In this document: positions 3,234 through 61,936 of the stretch, piece by piece
Layout of the letters: every line of letters begins with the position of its first letter
Numbering within the stretch: position 1 is the first letter of the stretch
IMG/VR virus record: IMGVR_UViG_3300035034_000989
Location: 39,983 to 103,982 of that record
Source: a virus
Strand: one strand, 5' to 3'
Length of the DNA stretch: 64,000 bases
Made by a program: the position numbers and the translations under genes
Notes under the pieces: model-generated
What the model was told of the DNA's origin: nothing
The model's database searches: none
Seen by the model: the letters and a program-made list of their open reading frames with translations, nothing else

Positions 3234-3788
3234 ATGGTTTACGGATTAGAAGACGTAAGAAACACTTTAGCAAGTATTACACAGCAAGACTACCTCATAG
3301 ACATGCTCTATGAGTATGAACGTACTCTTGATGAGGTAGGAATCAAAGCATATCGAAACTGGTATGCCGGCGAATTACTCGATGGTCCGAGGCTAACAAA
3401 ATACTGGATGACATGTAAATTTATGTATCCGGAAAAATTGATGCCTGATCCAGATGGTGCATTGAGACTTACCAAAATAGGTTGCGAAGTCAATTTTACA
3501 AAAGACATATTAAAGAAGCCGGTCAAGATTACTTCACCGCGCGATTGGAAAAACAATAACACCAAAGAGGCCAAGATCGAAGAGAAGCCAGTTTGGGTGG
3601 TAACAATTGCAATGCCAATCAAATACATCACTGATAACTTTGATCAAATCAACGCCTACCTAGAAAACGACGATGATCTCATGGACAATGAGCAGATCGC
3701 AGATGGGTACAGCGAAGATGAAGAACCTGCAAATGCAATGAGTTCAGATGATGAAATCATGGACACTGATTTCGACGAGGAAATATAA
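3234..3788 (+). CDS. Conserved T4-like late protein, unknown
   Basis: 184 aa. Early region has an RNWYAGELLDGP stretch and a CKFMYPEKLMPDP stretch, a type I associate from memory with hypothetical proteins of marine T4-like phages. The last 45 residues are very acidic (Asp/Glu rich). ATG follows AGGAAGG; a late promoter precedes it. Possibly virion or assembly related from the late promoter; no activity can be named. Confidence 0.7.
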   Translation: MVYGLEDVRNTLASITQQDYLIDMLYEYERTLDEVGIKAYRNWYAGELLDGPRLTKYWMTCKFMYPEKLMPDPDGALRLTKIGCEVNFTKDILKKPVKITSPRDWKNNNTKEAKIEEKPVWVVTIAMPIKYITDNFDQINAYLENDDDLMDNEQIADGYSEDEEPANAMSSDDEIMDTDFDEEI

Positions 3789-29068: not shown

Positions 29069-29087
29069 AATAAATTATATTAATTGG

Positions 29088-29115
29088 TTGACGTATGTTT
29101 ACACGATGCTATACT
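29088..29115 (+). promoter_or_regulatory. Distal promoter of moxR
   Basis: TTGACG, 16 nt, TATACT. From GATGCTATACTT to GGACTTAGA the sequence matches the csrA promoter at 46642, including a short leader hairpin. Confidence 0.75.
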
Positions 29116-29168
29116 TACTGGACTTAGAAATAAGCAACTTAGTCGAAAGAAAGAAATACAAGTTTTAG

Positions 29169-29196
29169 TTGACACAAACAAATACTTTGCTATACT
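29169..29196 (+). promoter_or_regulatory. Proximal promoter of moxR
   Basis: TTGACA, 16 nt, TATACT. Confidence 0.82.
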
Positions 29197-29235
29197 AATA
29201 ACACATTAACTTAGTCACAACAATAGGAGAGACAC

Positions 29236-30510
29236 ATGTCTCAAGATTTAACAACAATTGGTGCAGACCGCGCCGCACGATTAATCCGCGTTTGCATGGC
29301 AAAGAAGCGTCCTGTATTCCTTTGGGGTCCTCCGGGCATTGGTAAGTCTGAGCTAGTTGAGCAAATTGGTGCTAAAGAAGATCGCCCAGTTATTGACATG
29401 CGTATGCTTTTGTTAGACCCAACTGATGTTAAAGGCATTCCATACTACAACGTCTCGAAGAACACAATGGAGTGGGCACCACCAGGTGAGCTACCCATGA
29501 TTACTACTGCCGCTGATGTTAAGCAAGCAGAAGTAGTGCTAGAAGACCTTAAAGGTCGAGTTGATCCAAGTTTACTAGAAGGCATGGCACCTAAAGAATT
29601 ACTTGCGTTAGAGCGTGCTGTTAGTAATGCAGAAGAAAACTTAAAACAGATACTTGGTGCAAGCGAAATGCAAAACGCTATATTGTTCTTAGATGAACTG
29701 GTAGCGGCACCACCGAGTGTACAGGCAGCGGCATATCAGCTAATACTTAACCGTCGCGTAGGTCAATACCACTTACCCAAAGGCATCGACATGATTGCCG
29801 CAGGTAACCGCGAAACAGATAAGGCAGTAAGCTATAAAATGCCTACTCCACTTGCTAACCGCTTTATTCACTTAGAGATGGAAGCAGACTTTGATTCTTG
29901 GCAGAAGTGGGCAATCCACAACAACGTGCATCCTGATGTTGTTGGTTACTTGTCCGACAAGAAGCAAGACTTGATGTCGTTTGATCCCAAAAACGTTGGT
30001 AAGGCCTTTGCTACTCCGCGTTCATGGGTGTTCGTAAGTGACTTGTTATATGCACAGCGTGAGTTCAACCTAGATGATTTCGATCTTGGTGTGCTTATCG
30101 AAGGTACTATCGGCCCAGGCACAAAAATTGAGTTCATGAATCACTTGAAATACAGTGCTCGCTTGCCACGTGTTGAAGACGTGTTGACAGGCAAGGTCAA
30201 GAAGCTTGATAAAGAAGTTGCTAGCGAAATCTCTGCACACTACGCCTTAACGGTTGGTATGTGCTATGAATTACAGCGCCACTTCAAGCTAGTGGACGAC
30301 AGCAACGATACTGAACATGATAGCAAATCTTTACACGAAGCGGCAGATTACTACTTCGAGTTTATCATGGAAAACTTCAAGCAAGAAATGTGTGTGCTAG
30401 GTGCCCAGACATTACTGCGTGAATATGGTGTTAAGTTTAAGCCGGGCAAGATGAAGAACTTTACTAAGTTCCACGCTAAGTTTGGTGAATACATTATCGA
30501 CAATGACTAA
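29236..30510 (+). CDS. MoxR-family AAA+ ATPase
   Basis: 424 aa. Walker A GPPGIGKSE near residue 31, Walker B ILFLDELVAAPPS near 148, sensor region AAGNRETD near 190, followed by the AAA_5/MoxR lid. MoxR ATPases act with a VWA partner to remodel or metallate complexes (as in CobS/CobT chelatases). The partner is the next gene. Two promoters precede it and a terminator follows, so it can be made apart from the VWA gene. The phage target is unknown. Confidence 0.88.
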   Translation: MSQDLTTIGADRAARLIRVCMAKKRPVFLWGPPGIGKSELVEQIGAKEDRPVIDMRMLLLDPTDVKGIPYYNVSKNTMEWAPPGELPMITTAADVKQAEVVLEDLKGRVDPSLLEGMAPKELLALERAVSNAEENLKQILGASEMQNAILFLDELVAAPPSVQAAAYQLILNRRVGQYHLPKGIDMIAAGNRETDKAVSYKMPTPLANRFIHLEMEADFDSWQKWAIHNNVHPDVVGYLSDKKQDLMSFDPKNVGKAFATPRSWVFVSDLLYAQREFNLDDFDLGVLIEGTIGPGTKIEFMNHLKYSARLPRVEDVLTGKVKKLDKEVASEISAHYALTVGMCYELQRHFKLVDDSNDTEHDSKSLHEAADYYFEFIMENFKQEMCVLGAQTLLREYGVKFKPGKMKNFTKFHAKFGEYIIDND

Positions 30511-38968: not shown

Positions 38969-40425
38969 GAAATGACTTTCACACCATACCTGGTTTCAAA
39001 CGCATCAGCATCAGCTCGAGTGTTAACCATAGGATGACCCTTGATGTTCAAGCTGGTGTTAAGCAACATTGGGCATCCTGTACGCTCATGCATTAATGTT
39101 AGCGCATGGTGCAACCCCGGGTGATCCGATTTATTAACTGTCTGCACTCTGCTGGTATAATCAGCGTGTACTATAGCAGGAAACTTATCAGGGTACCTAC
39201 ACGGAAAGGTGTATTGCATATAAGGACTGGACGTTATCCGGCCCATATCGAAGTAATCGTTTGCATGCTCTTCTAATACAACAGGAGCAAACGGGCGAAA
39301 CTCTTGACGCTTTTTGATTTGATTAACACGATCTTTGATGTCCGTGCCACGCGGATCAGCAAACAGCGACCTGTTACCAAACGCTCTGGGGCCGAATTCT
39401 GCGCGTCCTGACGCTACTCCTACAATGGAGTTGGTCAGTATCTCATCCACTAGTCTTTGAGATGGGTACTCTCCACTGATGTCAGATCCGATGTAGGGGC
39501 CAGTCCATTTAACTTGCCTGTTATTAACACTGAGACAAGCGCCAAGACTACTGCCAGCATCGCCAGGATTAGGCATAATCCAAGTATTGCGATAATAATC
39601 AGGGATGCAACGATTAGCAGAACAATTGAGAGAAACACCACCCATATACACAAGATTATCCGACGGATAGACTCGCTTACTGTGTTGAAAAACTTCATGT
39701 AACTTCCTTTCTAATGTAACCTGTGCCGAAGCGGCAATATCGTATTCGTTGGCGCCTGGTAAATAATTCAGGCATCCCCGATGCAGGTTAACTTTTGTTT
39801 TTGCGAGCTTTCTTGTATAAAAGAAATCTTGCTCCATTTGGTCAGCATAGATAGGGTTACCATATGCCGCCATGCCCATAAGTATATACTCATCTTCGTT
39901 AGGTTTCAACCCCACTCGCTGAGTCATTGCAGTGTAAAACAAACCGAGGCTGTTAGGATAACGCTGTGTGAACAACTTAGTTAACTTGCCGTTATTGTAC
40001 TTCCACATGGTAAGACAATCCCATTCGCCTATCGCATCTGCAACAATAACACATGCATCGTCGTATCCGGATGTAAATGCTCCCGCCGCCGCATGAGACT
40101 CATGATGAGAAATACAACGTATCGGCACATCGTGGTAGCCAAACGCATCGCGTATTTTAGTTTCCACATGATCTTTTGCGAATGCTTTATCGTACTGCCC
40201 GCTATACACTTGTCTTACGCGCTTTAATAACGGCTTCTCGTAGAATGCAATGATATCCGGCTTGCCAAAGCTGTTGACTTCCTCTATCAGTCCTGGTGCA
40301 AGGTTCTTGTCGTTTTTGATTCTGGAGTACCTTTCCGAATGAGCGCCGAACATGATACAACCGTTATGTACAACTGATACAGAGGCGTCGTGTGAGAATG
40401 CCGACACACCAACAATATTAGTCAT
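38965..40425 (-). CDS. NodU/CmcH-type carbamoyltransferase
   Basis: 486 aa. N-terminal ASKHA-like domain starts VGVSAFSHDASVSVV, with HHESHAAAGAF near 105 (metal/ATP site) and GMAAYG near 182. C-terminal YrdC-like part has EFGPRAFGNRSLFADPR and LNTSLNIKG. Such enzymes make carbamoyl-adenylate and move the carbamoyl group to a hydroxyl on sugars or antibiotics. In phages the acceptor could be a surface glycan or modified base. Confidence 0.9.
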   Translation of the reverse strand: MTNIVGVSAFSHDASVSVVHNGCIMFGAHSERYSRIKNDKNLAPGLIEEVNSFGKPDIIAFYEKPLLKRVRQVYSGQYDKAFAKDHVETKIRDAFGYHDVPIRCISHHESHAAAGAFTSGYDDACVIVADAIGEWDCLTMWKYNNGKLTKLFTQRYPNSLGLFYTAMTQRVGLKPNEDEYILMGMAAYGNPIYADQMEQDFFYTRKLAKTKVNLHRGCLNYLPGANEYDIAASAQVTLERKLHEVFQHSKRVYPSDNLVYMGGVSLNCSANRCIPDYYRNTWIMPNPGDAGSSLGACLSVNNRQVKWTGPYIGSDISGEYPSQRLVDEILTNSIVGVASGRAEFGPRAFGNRSLFADPRGTDIKDRVNQIKKRQEFRPFAPVVLEEHANDYFDMGRITSSPYMQYTFPCRYPDKFPAIVHADYTSRVQTVNKSDHPGLHHALTLMHERTGCPMLLNTSLNIKGHPMVNTRADADAFETRYGVKVIS

Positions 40426-54853: not shown

Positions 54854-55582
54854 ATGATATCGCATGACGAAGAATACCAAGCACTCATAAACACAATCCG
54901 TGATGAGAAAACGTGGAAACAACTGAGACCAGGTGTGTTTAGCAAACGTCGGTTCGTGTCGATTAATGTACAATCTTTTATTGTACTAGACTGCATGCCG
55001 GATAAACTGATATTATCACTGAATTGCCTCTTTCCGGAAATTGGGTTTAACCGAACTCGAGGTTGCGCAGAAGGTTTCTTAAATCCTTACAGTTATGAAA
55101 TGCATGTCAAGTACACACCCGAAGACGGACTAGTGTACACCAAGCTGTCATGCTCGGGAATAATGACCACCACCGGTAAGGTCGAACATGTATCGATTGA
55201 AATTCCTGATAACGCCCACATGACAATGGATGCCTACACAAAAAGAATAGAAGATGATATCAACGATGGATACAATTCGATGTCTGCACAAGAACAGTCT
55301 TTTTATATGTTGAGCGGTGGGGAGATGCGCGGGCGTGAAATACTGAAACAACTCCACAAACTGCATCATGAACTTGAGCTGACTTGTCGGCGTGCATGGA
55401 AACGCAAACGCAAGATGCGTATCTTTGAAATTGCAATAGGGCAATGGATAGACCAAACTCATTTTCCTCACAAGTACTCGAAGTGGGGCTTCGTTGGCGC
55501 CCACACGTTTAACTTTGTTGTAACCTATCACGTGGTACAAGTTTACCTGCAAACTTTGTTACTAGGAATATTCTTGCTATGA
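54854..55582 (+). CDS. Unknown protein
   Basis: 242 aa; no adjacent ribosome site. Basic RRAWKRKRKMR segment near 185, and a hydrophobic C-terminal stretch (VVQVYLQTLLLGIFLL) that may be membrane-bound. ATGA overlap with the ATP-grasp gene. Confidence 0.6.
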   Translation: MISHDEEYQALINTIRDEKTWKQLRPGVFSKRRFVSINVQSFIVLDCMPDKLILSLNCLFPEIGFNRTRGCAEGFLNPYSYEMHVKYTPEDGLVYTKLSCSGIMTTTGKVEHVSIEIPDNAHMTMDAYTKRIEDDINDGYNSMSAQEQSFYMLSGGEMRGREILKQLHKLHHELELTCRRAWKRKRKMRIFEIAIGQWIDQTHFPHKYSKWGFVGAHTFNFVVTYHVVQVYLQTLLLGIFLL

Positions 55583-56439
55583 ATATATTATTAGACAGCT
55601 TGTTCACCAAAACCGGAATACAAAAAGATACATTTGTCAAGTCGGTGCGTGCAACAGGGCACAGCGTATATGTTTCCAAGTACCGTAGAAACATCACCGA
55701 TTTTGAAGTGGGCATACCACGCGACGAACCCTTGCTGGTGTACGGTTCAATACAGTTTGTAGAGGATGCGCTAAAGAACTTTAAATGCGCAGTTGCATTC
55801 TATAGCCAGCGAATTTTTAATTGTTCGTACTTCATGTCGCATTTGCCTATGACATTGTTTGTCAATTACGATGCAGAGTTTTGTCCAGTTGGTGTGTATC
55901 AGGAACAGCGAGCACGCCGAAAACATTACAACGAATGGAGTACTGCTGATGCTAAACACTACTTTGTGAGATCAGATAGTGGCCGCAAGCTGTTTGCAGG
56001 CAAGGTAATACCTACCGAACAAATGCATTGCTTCGCCACCGAAAGCCTCTCTAAGGACAGTATCGTATTGGTTGGTTGTGCCAAAGACATACGCGCTGAG
56101 CATCGGTACTTCATACACCGAAAAGAAATTGTGTCAAGGTGTATCACACATACAAATGGCAATGTATTCACAGTGCCGGATAAAAAAATAAGCCTGCAGG
56201 CGAACATTCCGTTGGACAAATTTGCTCTCATGGTTGCCGACATGGTCGATGAACTAGGTCACATGGACACCATGTATGTTCTTGATATTGCATCTTACAC
56301 AGAATATCAACATGGCAAGCCCAAGATTGGCATCATGGAGTTCAATGCCGCTAGCACATCAGACATGCACAATTGCAATGTAACTGCAATCTTTAGCGCA
56401 ATGGCAGAATGCATCGAAAAAGAAAATAGTTGTGATTAA
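55579..56439 (+). CDS. ATP-grasp protein, R2K type
   Basis: 286 aa. YFVRSDSGRKLFAGKVI near residue 128, EHRYFIHRKEIVSR near 176, and VLDIASY...IGIMEFNAAS near 235-260 follow the R2K ATP-grasp layout (FVRPxxxxKxFxG; ExRxFV; DxxxxxxxxxxIEfN). ATP-grasp enzymes join a carboxylate to an amine. R2K members are common in phages with unknown targets. Confidence 0.75.
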   Translation: MNILLDSLFTKTGIQKDTFVKSVRATGHSVYVSKYRRNITDFEVGIPRDEPLLVYGSIQFVEDALKNFKCAVAFYSQRIFNCSYFMSHLPMTLFVNYDAEFCPVGVYQEQRARRKHYNEWSTADAKHYFVRSDSGRKLFAGKVIPTEQMHCFATESLSKDSIVLVGCAKDIRAEHRYFIHRKEIVSRCITHTNGNVFTVPDKKISLQANIPLDKFALMVADMVDELGHMDTMYVLDIASYTEYQHGKPKIGIMEFNAASTSDMHNCNVTAIFSAMAECIEKENSCD

Positions 56440-58996: not shown

Positions 58997-60793
58997 ATGC
59001 CGTTAGTAGATCTATCACTCAAGCTATTTAATGTGGTACCAACAAGCCACAATCCTGTGCCAGCCAAAGCGCACGTTGATTTTAACAGTGGTATTATTAT
59101 TGCACAGGATGCATGCTGGGCAAGGCACGACATTCTTAACTTCCTTGATGCTAAACGTCTGTCAGGCGAAGACCTAAACAAAACATGGCACACCATATGG
59201 GCCAATGTAGACTCAACAAGCAAAGCATCTATCACTAGCACAATAATGGGCTACCTTAACGGGCTTGGTAATAAACTAAATAAAGAAATTCAGGTGCCAA
59301 GTGAAGTGATTGGCATTGAAGACTTGGGAATAAAGTTTGTAACCGTACAGGCCATACCCGAATCCGAACTGGGGCCACGTGCTCTAAACATGCTTCAAAG
59401 CGGCATTGCATTAAAAAGCCAAACCATTACTGACCTGTTCGATGTATTAAGCGCAGTCAAGTATCAGTGGACCGGTAAAGAAGATGTTCGCAACAAAGAA
59501 GCCATTGTTATTTTAGCAGACCGTCACAAAGTGTATCCCAAGGATCCAGTTGACGTGTTGCGTTACACTGTGTTTAAGGCAACCGGTAGCGCCATGCTTA
59601 TAAAAAGCGGTGGGGCCGTGCGACAGATTAAAGAATCAGCGTTCAGTCCAACTGATGCGTTTGAATCATGTGGCGAAGCACGAATGGCAGAAGTATTCAA
59701 TCGCTTTAAACCGTTGTTCCTTGCATACAAGTCCGGTGGCGACTCTGGTACCAAAAAGATGATAAATCGGATTGCCAAGCTGAGCAAGACCAAGCACAAG
59801 CCATTGCCAGTTAATGCACTAAATGAAGTTACATCGCGTTCACTCAAGCTCGAGGACTTACACTGGCTCAAGAATGCAACACCATTTGCCCTGTGTAAAG
59901 CATTGCAGGCGTGCTATACACGCATGAACAACAGCAGAACTATATTTGCGTACCATATACGAAATGGTAAGAGCTGGTACAAGGAAGCCGCTAACAAGAC
60001 AGACACAGTCGATATCAACTACAACTTTGATCTAATTGCAAACGAATTGAAATTGCGTGTTAACACAGAAGGTCACAAGATATTTATACCGGAAGGCATT
60101 GAGTATGCCCTACCGACTTCCGAAAAGATGATGATTGGCAATGTGCCTACTGGAACTAAATTCACTGCCAATCAAGTGGCCGCAGGTATTTACTGGGAAA
60201 ACTCTTGGGGTGCTCGTGACTTGGACTTGTCGTCCATTGACGTTGGCGGAAACAAAGTAGGATGGGACTCGCGTTACAGCGGGCAAGACTCTGCAATCAA
60301 ATACTCGGGTGATATCACCGACGCAAAAAACGGCGCGGTGGAATATATAAATGTAAGTTCCAAGCTCAAGAATGCCACAATGGTACTTAATAATGTGTAT
60401 AGCGGTGAACCTGATTGCAAGTACAAGATTATCGTTGGCAAAGGTGCCAACATAAGCGACAAGTACATGCAAGATCCGGGCAAGGTGTGGGTGGATGAAC
60501 ACACCCAGTCGGTCAAGCAAGAAAGCATTATCGGCTTATTCCTTCCTGAAGAAGGTGATAAGGTATCATTTGTCATGCTTAACACCGCATGCGGAACAGG
60601 CAGTGCGTCAAGCGGGCGCGAACATACCATACAGTTCAACAAGGCCATGGTAGAGCAGTACAGCAACCAGTTTACTCTAAATTTATTGCTAGAATACATA
60701 GGATTTGAGTTGACAGACACTGCGAATGATGCTACAATAGACTTATCGCTAGACAACTTAGAGCGTGACACGTTCGTTAAACTGTTTATCTAA
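58997..60793 (+). CDS. Large unknown protein with TerD-like C-terminal part
   Basis: 598 aa, two parts. Residues about 1-360 are helical with repeated Lys/Asn/Ala. From about 390 it is beta-rich: YWENSWGARDLDLSSID, GWDSRYSG, AIKYSGDI, then VEYINVSSKL, reminiscent of TerD-type calcium-binding beta sandwiches (RDLD...). Similarity is suggestive only. Longest gene in this half of the window, so it may matter in infection. Confidence 0.6.
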   Translation: MPLVDLSLKLFNVVPTSHNPVPAKAHVDFNSGIIIAQDACWARHDILNFLDAKRLSGEDLNKTWHTIWANVDSTSKASITSTIMGYLNGLGNKLNKEIQVPSEVIGIEDLGIKFVTVQAIPESELGPRALNMLQSGIALKSQTITDLFDVLSAVKYQWTGKEDVRNKEAIVILADRHKVYPKDPVDVLRYTVFKATGSAMLIKSGGAVRQIKESAFSPTDAFESCGEARMAEVFNRFKPLFLAYKSGGDSGTKKMINRIAKLSKTKHKPLPVNALNEVTSRSLKLEDLHWLKNATPFALCKALQACYTRMNNSRTIFAYHIRNGKSWYKEAANKTDTVDINYNFDLIANELKLRVNTEGHKIFIPEGIEYALPTSEKMMIGNVPTGTKFTANQVAAGIYWENSWGARDLDLSSIDVGGNKVGWDSRYSGQDSAIKYSGDITDAKNGAVEYINVSSKLKNATMVLNNVYSGEPDCKYKIIVGKGANISDKYMQDPGKVWVDEHTQSVKQESIIGLFLPEEGDKVSFVMLNTACGTGSASSGREHTIQFNKAMVEQYSNQFTLNLLLEYIGFELTDTANDATIDLSLDNLERDTFVKLFI

Positions 60794-61122: not shown

Positions 61123-61176
61123 TGGGCAAAGGTAGTTCCTATAAAAAAATTATTGGAAATTATTACTACTCGCCCA
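61123..61176 (+). ncRNA. Tandem structured RNA motif, copy 1
   Basis: P1 TGGGC/GCCCA (61123-61127, 61172-61176); internal loop AAA against C (61171); P2 GGTAGT/ACTACT (61131-61136, 61165-61170, one G.T); then TCCTATAAA (61137-61145); apical hairpin AATTATT-GGA-AATTATT with one mismatch. Confidence 0.65.
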
Positions 61177-61183
61177 ACCCTAC

Positions 61184-61251
61184 TTGACATAGAGTGTTCC
61201 TATAAACGCAGAAATCGGGTTTCAAAGCCCGAACAAAATACACTCCGTCAA
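61184..61251 (+). ncRNA. Tandem structured RNA motif, copy 2
   Basis: P1 TTGAC/GTCAA (61184-61188, 61247-61251); internal loop ATA against C (61246); P2 GAGTGT/ACACTC (61192-61197, 61240-61245); TCCTATAAA (61198-61206); apical hairpin TCGGG/CCCGA (61215-61219, 61228-61232). All helix pairs are Watson-Crick, with bases different from copy 1. Confidence 0.68.
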
Positions 61252-61265
61252 ATGCTTTAAAAATT

Positions 61266-61325
61266 TAGGCAAATAAGGTTCCTATAAACATGAATTATAC
61301 TCATACCAGAAATACCTTTCGCCTA
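61266..61325 (+). ncRNA. Tandem structured RNA motif, copy 3
   Basis: P1 TAGGC/GCCTA (61266-61270, 61321-61325); internal loop AAA against C (61320); P2 TAAGGT/ACCTTT (61274-61279, 61314-61319, one T.T); TCCTATAAA (61280-61288); short apical ATGA/TCAT hairpin. Confidence 0.62.
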
Positions 61326-61386
61326 TTACCAATTCACTTGTGTAGCACACAACTCGTACAATCAAATAAATATCAAGTTACAATAC

Positions 61387-61632
61387 AAAGGCTGTCTCAA
61401 CTGTTTTCCTGGTTGATATGTGCCGGAACAAAATGTCAGTGCCGCTGTTTCGGTAATCGAATGCGTAATATCTGCAAAGCCGAATTAAGTTATGTAAGCA
61501 AGTGGAGTACCCGGGCTTACTGTCAATACTTAAAACTGCGAGGGGGATGGAAAACTGTATCATGGCTATGTTCCCTGCCAAGAATAGACGCTAGCACAGG
61601 CGCGATTCTATTCGGAGACAGCCTTTTTATTT
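61387..61632 (+). ncRNA. Structured RNA, ~245 nt, closed by a 12-bp stem plus T-tract
   Basis: AAAGGCTGTCTC (61387-61398) pairs with GAGACAGCCTTT (61615-61626), then more T to 61632. Internal helices: CCGGAACA/TGTTTCGG (61423-61430, 61446-61453), GTAAGC/GCTTAC (61494-61520), GGGGA/TTCCC (about 61543-61575), GAATAGA/TCTATTC (61582-61613). The frame open through it codes an unlikely Cys/Arg/Ser-rich protein. It ends 20 nt before groES. No known class was recognised. Confidence 0.6.
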
Positions 61633-61651
61633 TAACTAACGGAGTAGAAAA

Positions 61652-61936
61652 ATGAGTTTACAACCATTGCATGATTATGTAATAGTACAAGCAAAACAAA
61701 AACAAGTATCCAAGTTGATACATGTTGCAGACCCAGCCGATGGTGACACAGGCATTGTTGTTGCAGTTGGTCCAGGTGAAATGTTAGCAAATGGCACACG
61801 TGGCGACATGTCGGTAACAGCAGGACAAGAAGTAATCTTTGCAAAAGATATACTGCGCAAAGACAAGCAGGATGATGGCACCGAGCATTACTGGATGCGC
61901 ATTGTTAATGTAATGGGAATACTGAGCGAAAAATAA
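61652..61936 (+). CDS. groES: GroES-like co-chaperonin
   Basis: 94 aa. LQPLHDYVIVQ start, GIVVAVGPGE core, VIFAKDI, and IVNVMGIL end follow the Cpn10 pattern; the mobile loop is about residues 16-30. Length equals bacterial GroES (97 aa) and it takes the role of T4 gp31, assisting host GroEL in folding capsid protein. ATG behind GGAGTAGAAAA. The structured RNAs upstream form its leader. Confidence 0.92.
   Translation: MSLQPLHDYVIVQAKQKQVSKLIHVADPADGDTGIVVAVGPGEMLANGTRGDMSVTAGQEVIFAKDILRKDKQDDGTEHYWMRIVNVMGILSEK

Follow-up and report, generated by a model that had tools for sequence, protein, structure and literature searches.

The 64,000-nucleotide (nt) stretch of viral DNA analyzed here (positions 39,983 to 103,982 of the IMG/VR record IMGVR_UViG_3300035034_000989; hereafter the window) carries, at positions 61123–61325, three tandem copies of an RNA that belongs to a real and new family with a consistent protein partner. 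In the window this partner is a putative RNA-binding protein of 598 amino acids, encoded on the + strand at 58997–60793, and its homologues lie next to the RNA in both phages and bacteria. An earlier note, made from the letters of the window, had described the three copies as a possible new class of covarying RNA. Our analysis adds two points: the family is not confined to phages but also occurs on Bacteroidota chromosomes, and it is not free-standing, having one protein family as its partner. In architecture the family is kin to Y RNAs and tRNAs. We consider it probable that the copies are small trans-acting RNAs that form ribonucleoproteins (RNPs) with the protein and serve as Y-RNA-like adaptors in tRNA repair or quality control.

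All three copies lie on the + strand and share a 5-base-pair (bp) stem P1, an internal loop of ANA against C, a 6-bp stem P2 ending GT/AC, and TTCCTATAAA. In copy 1 (61123–61176, 54 nt), P1 pairs TGGGC with GCCCA (61123–61127 with 61172–61176), AAA (61128–61130) faces C (61171), and P2 pairs GGTAGT with ACTACT (61131–61136 with 61165–61170), its 5′ strand being followed by TCCTATAAA. Copy 2 (61184–61251, 68 nt) has TTGAC/GTCAA in P1, ATA against C (61246) in the internal loop, and GAGTGT/ACACTC in P2 (61192–61197 with 61240–61245), then TCCTATAAA and the apical hairpin CGGGTTTCAAAGCCCG. Copy 3 (61266–61325, 60 nt) has TAGGC/GCCTA in P1, AAA against C (61320), and TAAGGT/ACCTTT in P2 (61274–61279 with 61314–61319) with one T.T opposition, again followed by TCCTATAAA. 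The covariance model R1, described below, scores the three copies at 57.3, 43.8 and 46.2 bits, respectively. All three fold better than their dinucleotide shuffles, with z scores of −3.0, −3.8 and −2.7, and the window contains three occurrences of TTCCTATAAA, compared with an expectation of 0.10 from shuffles.

The three-copy observation of the earlier note is thus real, with coordinates, lengths and gaps (7 and 14 nt) that are exact; its internal loop and P2 ending recur in every copy, and the sole T.T in copy 3 and the sole G.T in copy 1 stand where it had placed them. Its statement that P1 and P2 differ completely between copies went too far: the sequences do vary, but the inner C-G of P1 and the inner GT/AC of P2 are common to all. 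Likewise, the apical hairpin that it assigned to each copy is convincing in copy 2 and not in copies 1 and 3. No further copies were found in the rest of the 104-kb virus record. At gathering score, Rfam returned no match anywhere in the window, and the matches around the array were at chance level, so that no Rfam family accounts for the array.

A pattern scan of viral contigs gave matches that were nearly all due to chance, and a structure filter left two contigs with tandem copies (L045 and L046). In each of them, a homologue (32% identity) of the window protein is encoded downstream of the array. Searching with this protein yielded 39 viral loci, nearly all with tandem copies of the motif nearby on the same strand. 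The RNA and the protein gene are carried together by the isolated phages S-CRM01 and S-CBWM1 and by the sequenced gut phage Phass-1. Across the family, arrays are tandem and comprise 2–6 members. R1 was built from 67 copies, all viral and selected by pairing; they score 97.6% paired, with 209 double changes against 60 in shuffles, counts that are illustrative rather than independent proof because the copies were chosen by pairing.

Independent loci were therefore drawn from genomes in GTDB by protein alignment alone, which gave 80 flavobacterial loci, all of them in Bacteroidota. R1 found 227 matches in these loci, 226 of them on the strand of the gene and almost all within the 500 nt upstream of it. 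At least 76 of the 80 loci hold a copy, and the median distance between the last copy and the beginning of the matched coding region is 26 nt. Moreover, when the heptamer GTTCCTA upstream of the gene was used as a sequence-only anchor, 190 of 235 anchors were flanked by at least 10 of 11 pairs, compared with 2 of 65 anchors elsewhere and 28 of 274 after the sequence downstream had been shuffled. Among the bacterial copies, 201 are distinct; they display 32 variants of the P1 strand and 27 of the P2 strand around a constant AAA/C, GT/AC and TCCTA. Relatives with compensatory changes thus exist, and this independent set backs the claim of the earlier note that the array is a structured RNA under selection. 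Among 148 whole Bacteroidota genomes, the protein was present in three (one of which is the genome used as the search center), with the RNA adjacent in 3/3; in a fourth genome (G068), a single, weaker RNA match falls within a reading frame and is probably due to chance. No description of the RNA family turned up in the open literature; most subscription papers lay outside the scope of the search, and priority can therefore not be claimed.

Structure models and Foldseek divide the partner protein into a helical N-terminal domain and a TerD-like C-terminal domain. The AlphaFold2 models are good, with predicted local distance difference test (pLDDT) values of 80 and 87 and predicted template modeling (pTM) scores of 0.83 and 0.87. 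Among viral structure models, the C-terminal domain again resembles TerD, and the best relative over the full length carries the annotation "tellurium resistant like". In the tree, the window protein stands beside the Bacteroidota clade (94/83). Pfam scans of the protein family matched no family and revealed no RING domain. The NCBIfam family NF041916 (MXAN_6230/SCO0854 RING family) matches 27 of 34 members in part, with a best E of 5.1e-8; in the two members inspected this match falls in the C-terminal region, and it reaches about 28 bits (27.9 in L139) against a cut-off of 600. An identity with Ro60, the TROVE protein (PF05731) that partners Y RNAs, was considered and is unsupported by Pfam, hhalign and Foldseek. 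Foldseek found nothing significant in the PDB, with Ro60 (9nf8) at rank 16 and an E of 0.16. The protein is not demonstrably Ro60-like.

Some array members contain tRNA-like modules. In most bacterial loci and in six phage loci (L129, L130, L133, L138, L144 and L147), one member is a tRNA body in which the conserved element, referred to below as the handle, replaces the anticodon loop; this member is often the first in the array. The handle is circularly permuted there, running P2′-C-P1′-short loop-P1-ANA-P2-UUCCU. The Rfam tRNA model (RF00005) recognized, at its gathering score, 15 array members of 97–121 nt in 13 of the 15 loci tested, and about 60 loci have an array member bearing acceptor, D and T arms. 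When 16 tRNA-shaped sequences were given to RNAalifold with no structure supplied, it recovered the acceptor, D and T stems and the inserted handle, and 13 of the 25 pairs showed double changes. ARAGORN called a tRNA in 65 of 76 sequences once the hairpin was excised (5 before excision; 33 of 76 in the control), a weaker result than that of Rfam because ARAGORN is tolerant. In a second type of member, six of which (in L124, L139, L156 and L163) match the Rfam model of the bacterial Y RNA YrlA at 35–43 bits, a permuted T-arm, capped acceptor stem and D-arm are held inside the handle. The three window copies have no such module. Both handle topologies stand side by side in L144, where the apical loop of one copy (3631–3750) encloses a complete tRNA-like sequence and the preceding member (3502–3618) is a tRNA with an inserted handle. 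In phage S-CBWM1, two annotated tRNA-pseudo genes (L164 6189–6365) adjoin the protein gene and may be tRNA-like array members.

In bacteria, the array lies between RtcB and the protein gene in RNA-repair operons. RtcB is found within 4 kb in 69 of the 80 bacterial loci, and RlaP, PNK and Thg1 in some. The order in Chryseobacterium is RtcB, RNA array, protein, RlaP, a gene of unknown function, an R2K ATP-grasp, an AAA_33 kinase (PNK-like), Thg1, TROVE and RlaP. The TROVE gene (L284 12143–13516) follows the protein gene at a distance of about 5 kb, so one operon can encode both the new protein and a Ro60-type protein. A precedent for Y RNAs beside RtcB, which we count in favor of an adaptor role, is the Salmonella operon rsr-yrlBA-rtcBA, which unites RtcB with Rsr and Y RNAs (YrlA) and responds to tRNA breakage (PMC7790460). 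Around the phage loci, tRNA genes occur at 2.05 per 10 kb, compared with 0.15 in control viral loci. The window also encodes an R2K clade ATP-grasp (55579–56439), about 3 kb upstream of the protein gene; tblastn detected no similarity between it and the R2K gene of the Chryseobacterium operon.

Based on these findings, we propose a plausible mode of action for the array. The constant part (P1, the ANA/C loop, P2 ending GU/AC, and UUCCU) would be the handle bound by the protein. The apical part varies by copy. It may be no more than a short linker, or it may be a simple hairpin, a T-arm hairpin, a YrlA-like permuted tRNA module or a tRNA body with the handle inserted for its anticodon loop. This variable head would be what the particle displays, so that some particles would offer a hairpin, a T-arm or an entire tRNA shape and others nothing. 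A constant protein-binding part joined to a presenting head is how Y RNAs work with Ro60. By analogy with that system, the RNA might act in trans, tethering or gating the protein towards clients with a tRNA shape or towards enzymes that handle tRNAs; in phages, the particle may help to keep the tRNA pool intact, by protection or repair, under attack from anticodon nucleases of the host. In its widest form, a proposal that we regard as evenly poised, the array belongs to a second Ro60/Y-RNA-like RNP system whose protein has no detectable TROVE homology. This system would be common to phages and flavobacteria, would use two circularly permuted forms of its handle (one forming the outer stem in minimal or YrlA-like RNAs, the other a hairpin replacing the tRNA anticodon loop), and would serve tRNA repair and phage counter-defense.

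Several results weigh against an adaptor role of this kind. Alignment of the protein with 11 TROVE proteins by hhalign gave a probability of 0.3%, and since no TROVE homology is detectable, the analogy with Y RNAs draws its support from the RNA side and from the operon. The YrlA-like scores fall below the gathering score of 69. RlaP is present in 8 of 26 viral records and RtcB in only 4 of 26, and the record of the window virus (104 kb) contains no tRNA, RtcB, RlaP or tRNA-like copy; linkage to RtcB, RlaP, PNK or Thg1, which marks the bacterial loci as RNA-repair operons, is not seen in it.

Among the other explanations, the copies could be cis-acting leader sites, bound by the protein in autoregulation of its mRNA or operon, rather than free RNAs. 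In favor of this, arrays typically stop no more than about 100 nt from the gene and share its strand, and multiple tandem copies would suit cooperative binding. In the window, however, the array follows the gene and precedes groES, and in eight further loci (L124, L130, L132, L133, L135, L155, L163 and L165) copies lie on both sides of the gene or downstream only. Members shaped like tRNAs would, moreover, make no sense as mere leader sites, and we judge this explanation rather unlikely. It is unlikely, too, that the RNAs are decoys whose tRNA-like copies bait anticodon nucleases or tRNA-processing enzymes while the protein merely stabilizes them. The tRNA bodies without an anticodon and the tRNA clusters of the phages would fit this idea, and a role as competitive inhibitor has been suggested for YrlA (PMC7790460); most copies, including all three in the window, nevertheless have no tRNA module, and what is conserved is the handle and not a nuclease site.

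A ligand-sensing or self-cleaving RNA in tandem copies could account for the compact conserved loop (ANA/C, UUCCU) and the tandem arrangement. Against it stand the strict tie to one protein gene instead of varied target genes and the circularly permuted handle found inserted in tRNAs. The earlier note did not recognize the motif as a hammerhead, twister, preQ1, glnA or guanidine-type RNA, and Rfam gave no riboswitch or ribozyme match. The partnership with a protein gene and the kinship to Y RNAs and tRNAs make a riboswitch or ribozyme less likely than an RNP RNA, and we rate the former as very improbable. We give almost no credence to the view that the copies are DNA elements such as T4-type late promoters (CTATAAA) with accidental pairing. 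In favor of this view, TTCCTATAAA resembles a TATAAATA-type element, and the window phage has T4-like replication genes. In relatives, however, the TATAAA part varies (TTCCTTT, TTCCTCC, TTCCTGT) while the pairing is kept, and the same element is present on bacterial chromosomes; the R1 matches in bacterial loci and the anchor pairing test refute a DNA element as the sole explanation.

Among the closest known systems is the Ro60/Rsr–Y RNA RNP, which likewise combines a helical protein, encoded beside small stem-loop RNAs with a short asymmetric internal loop, with an RNA-repair setting. Ro60 has a vWA domain where the partner protein has its TerD-like C-terminal domain. YrlA (RF02553) shares with the family a long stem, putatively protein-binding in the latter, and, in some array members, the permuted module of T-arm, capped acceptor stem and D-arm. 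The handle, NNGGC-ANA-P2-UUCCU / P2′-C-GCCNN, is unlike the YrlA stem of the Rfam model; in addition, most array copies have no tRNA module, the copies form tandem arrays, and the linked protein is not detectably TROVE. No Y RNA family model matched around the window array even at an E of 10, and Pfam, hhalign and Foldseek identified no TROVE/Ro60 (Rsr) partner. Still, of all RNAs known to us, a Y RNA is the one whose way of working the family would most resemble. With tRNAs it shares acceptor, D and T arms in array members, but the anticodon loop is replaced by the permuted handle with a P1 loop of 3–8 nt; the RF00005 cloverleaf is recognized in the first members of relatives and not in the window record.

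These results add one RNA family absent from Rfam and one protein family absent from Pfam to the few known bacterial and phage RNPs, and point to a Y-RNA-like architecture evolving with another protein partner. They also show that many RNA-repair operons of Chryseobacterium contain tRNAs whose anticodon is replaced by a putative protein handle. The unsolved role of bacterial Y RNAs in RNA repair thereby becomes open to experiment, both in flavobacteria that can be cultured and in the cyanophage isolates S-CRM01 and S-CBWM1.

Downstream of the array, a structured stretch of about 260 nt (61376–61637, + strand; z −3.0) is closed by a 23-nt inverted repeat, AGTTACAATACAAAGGCTGTCTC / GAGACAGCCTTTTTATTTTAACT, with a T run. 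No similar phage DNA and no Rfam match were found for this stretch, which may end the transcript or be a separate RNA. It is followed by a GroES (Cpn10) homologue (61652–61936, + strand); linkage of groES to the array was not seen in the relatives inspected. Two candidate relatives were rejected. BFVD contains a structural relative of the protein from Campylobacter phage CP21, but this phage gave no R1 match. The region of Listeria phage P100 (L289, 95000–131384) resembles the present loci in having an Rsr-like gene beside tRNAs and an abundant non-coding RNA (PMC12282133), but it has no R1 motif and its protein is unrelated to the window protein, so that a link to the abundant RNAs of CKA15/P100 was dismissed. 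The RNA there resembles ROOL instead: positions 29073–29624 on the − strand, near the Rsr-like gene gp165, match ROOL at 86 bits (gathering score 99.1), and the very abundant non-coding transcript that has been reported for CKA15, a P100-like phage, may be ROOL and not a Y RNA.
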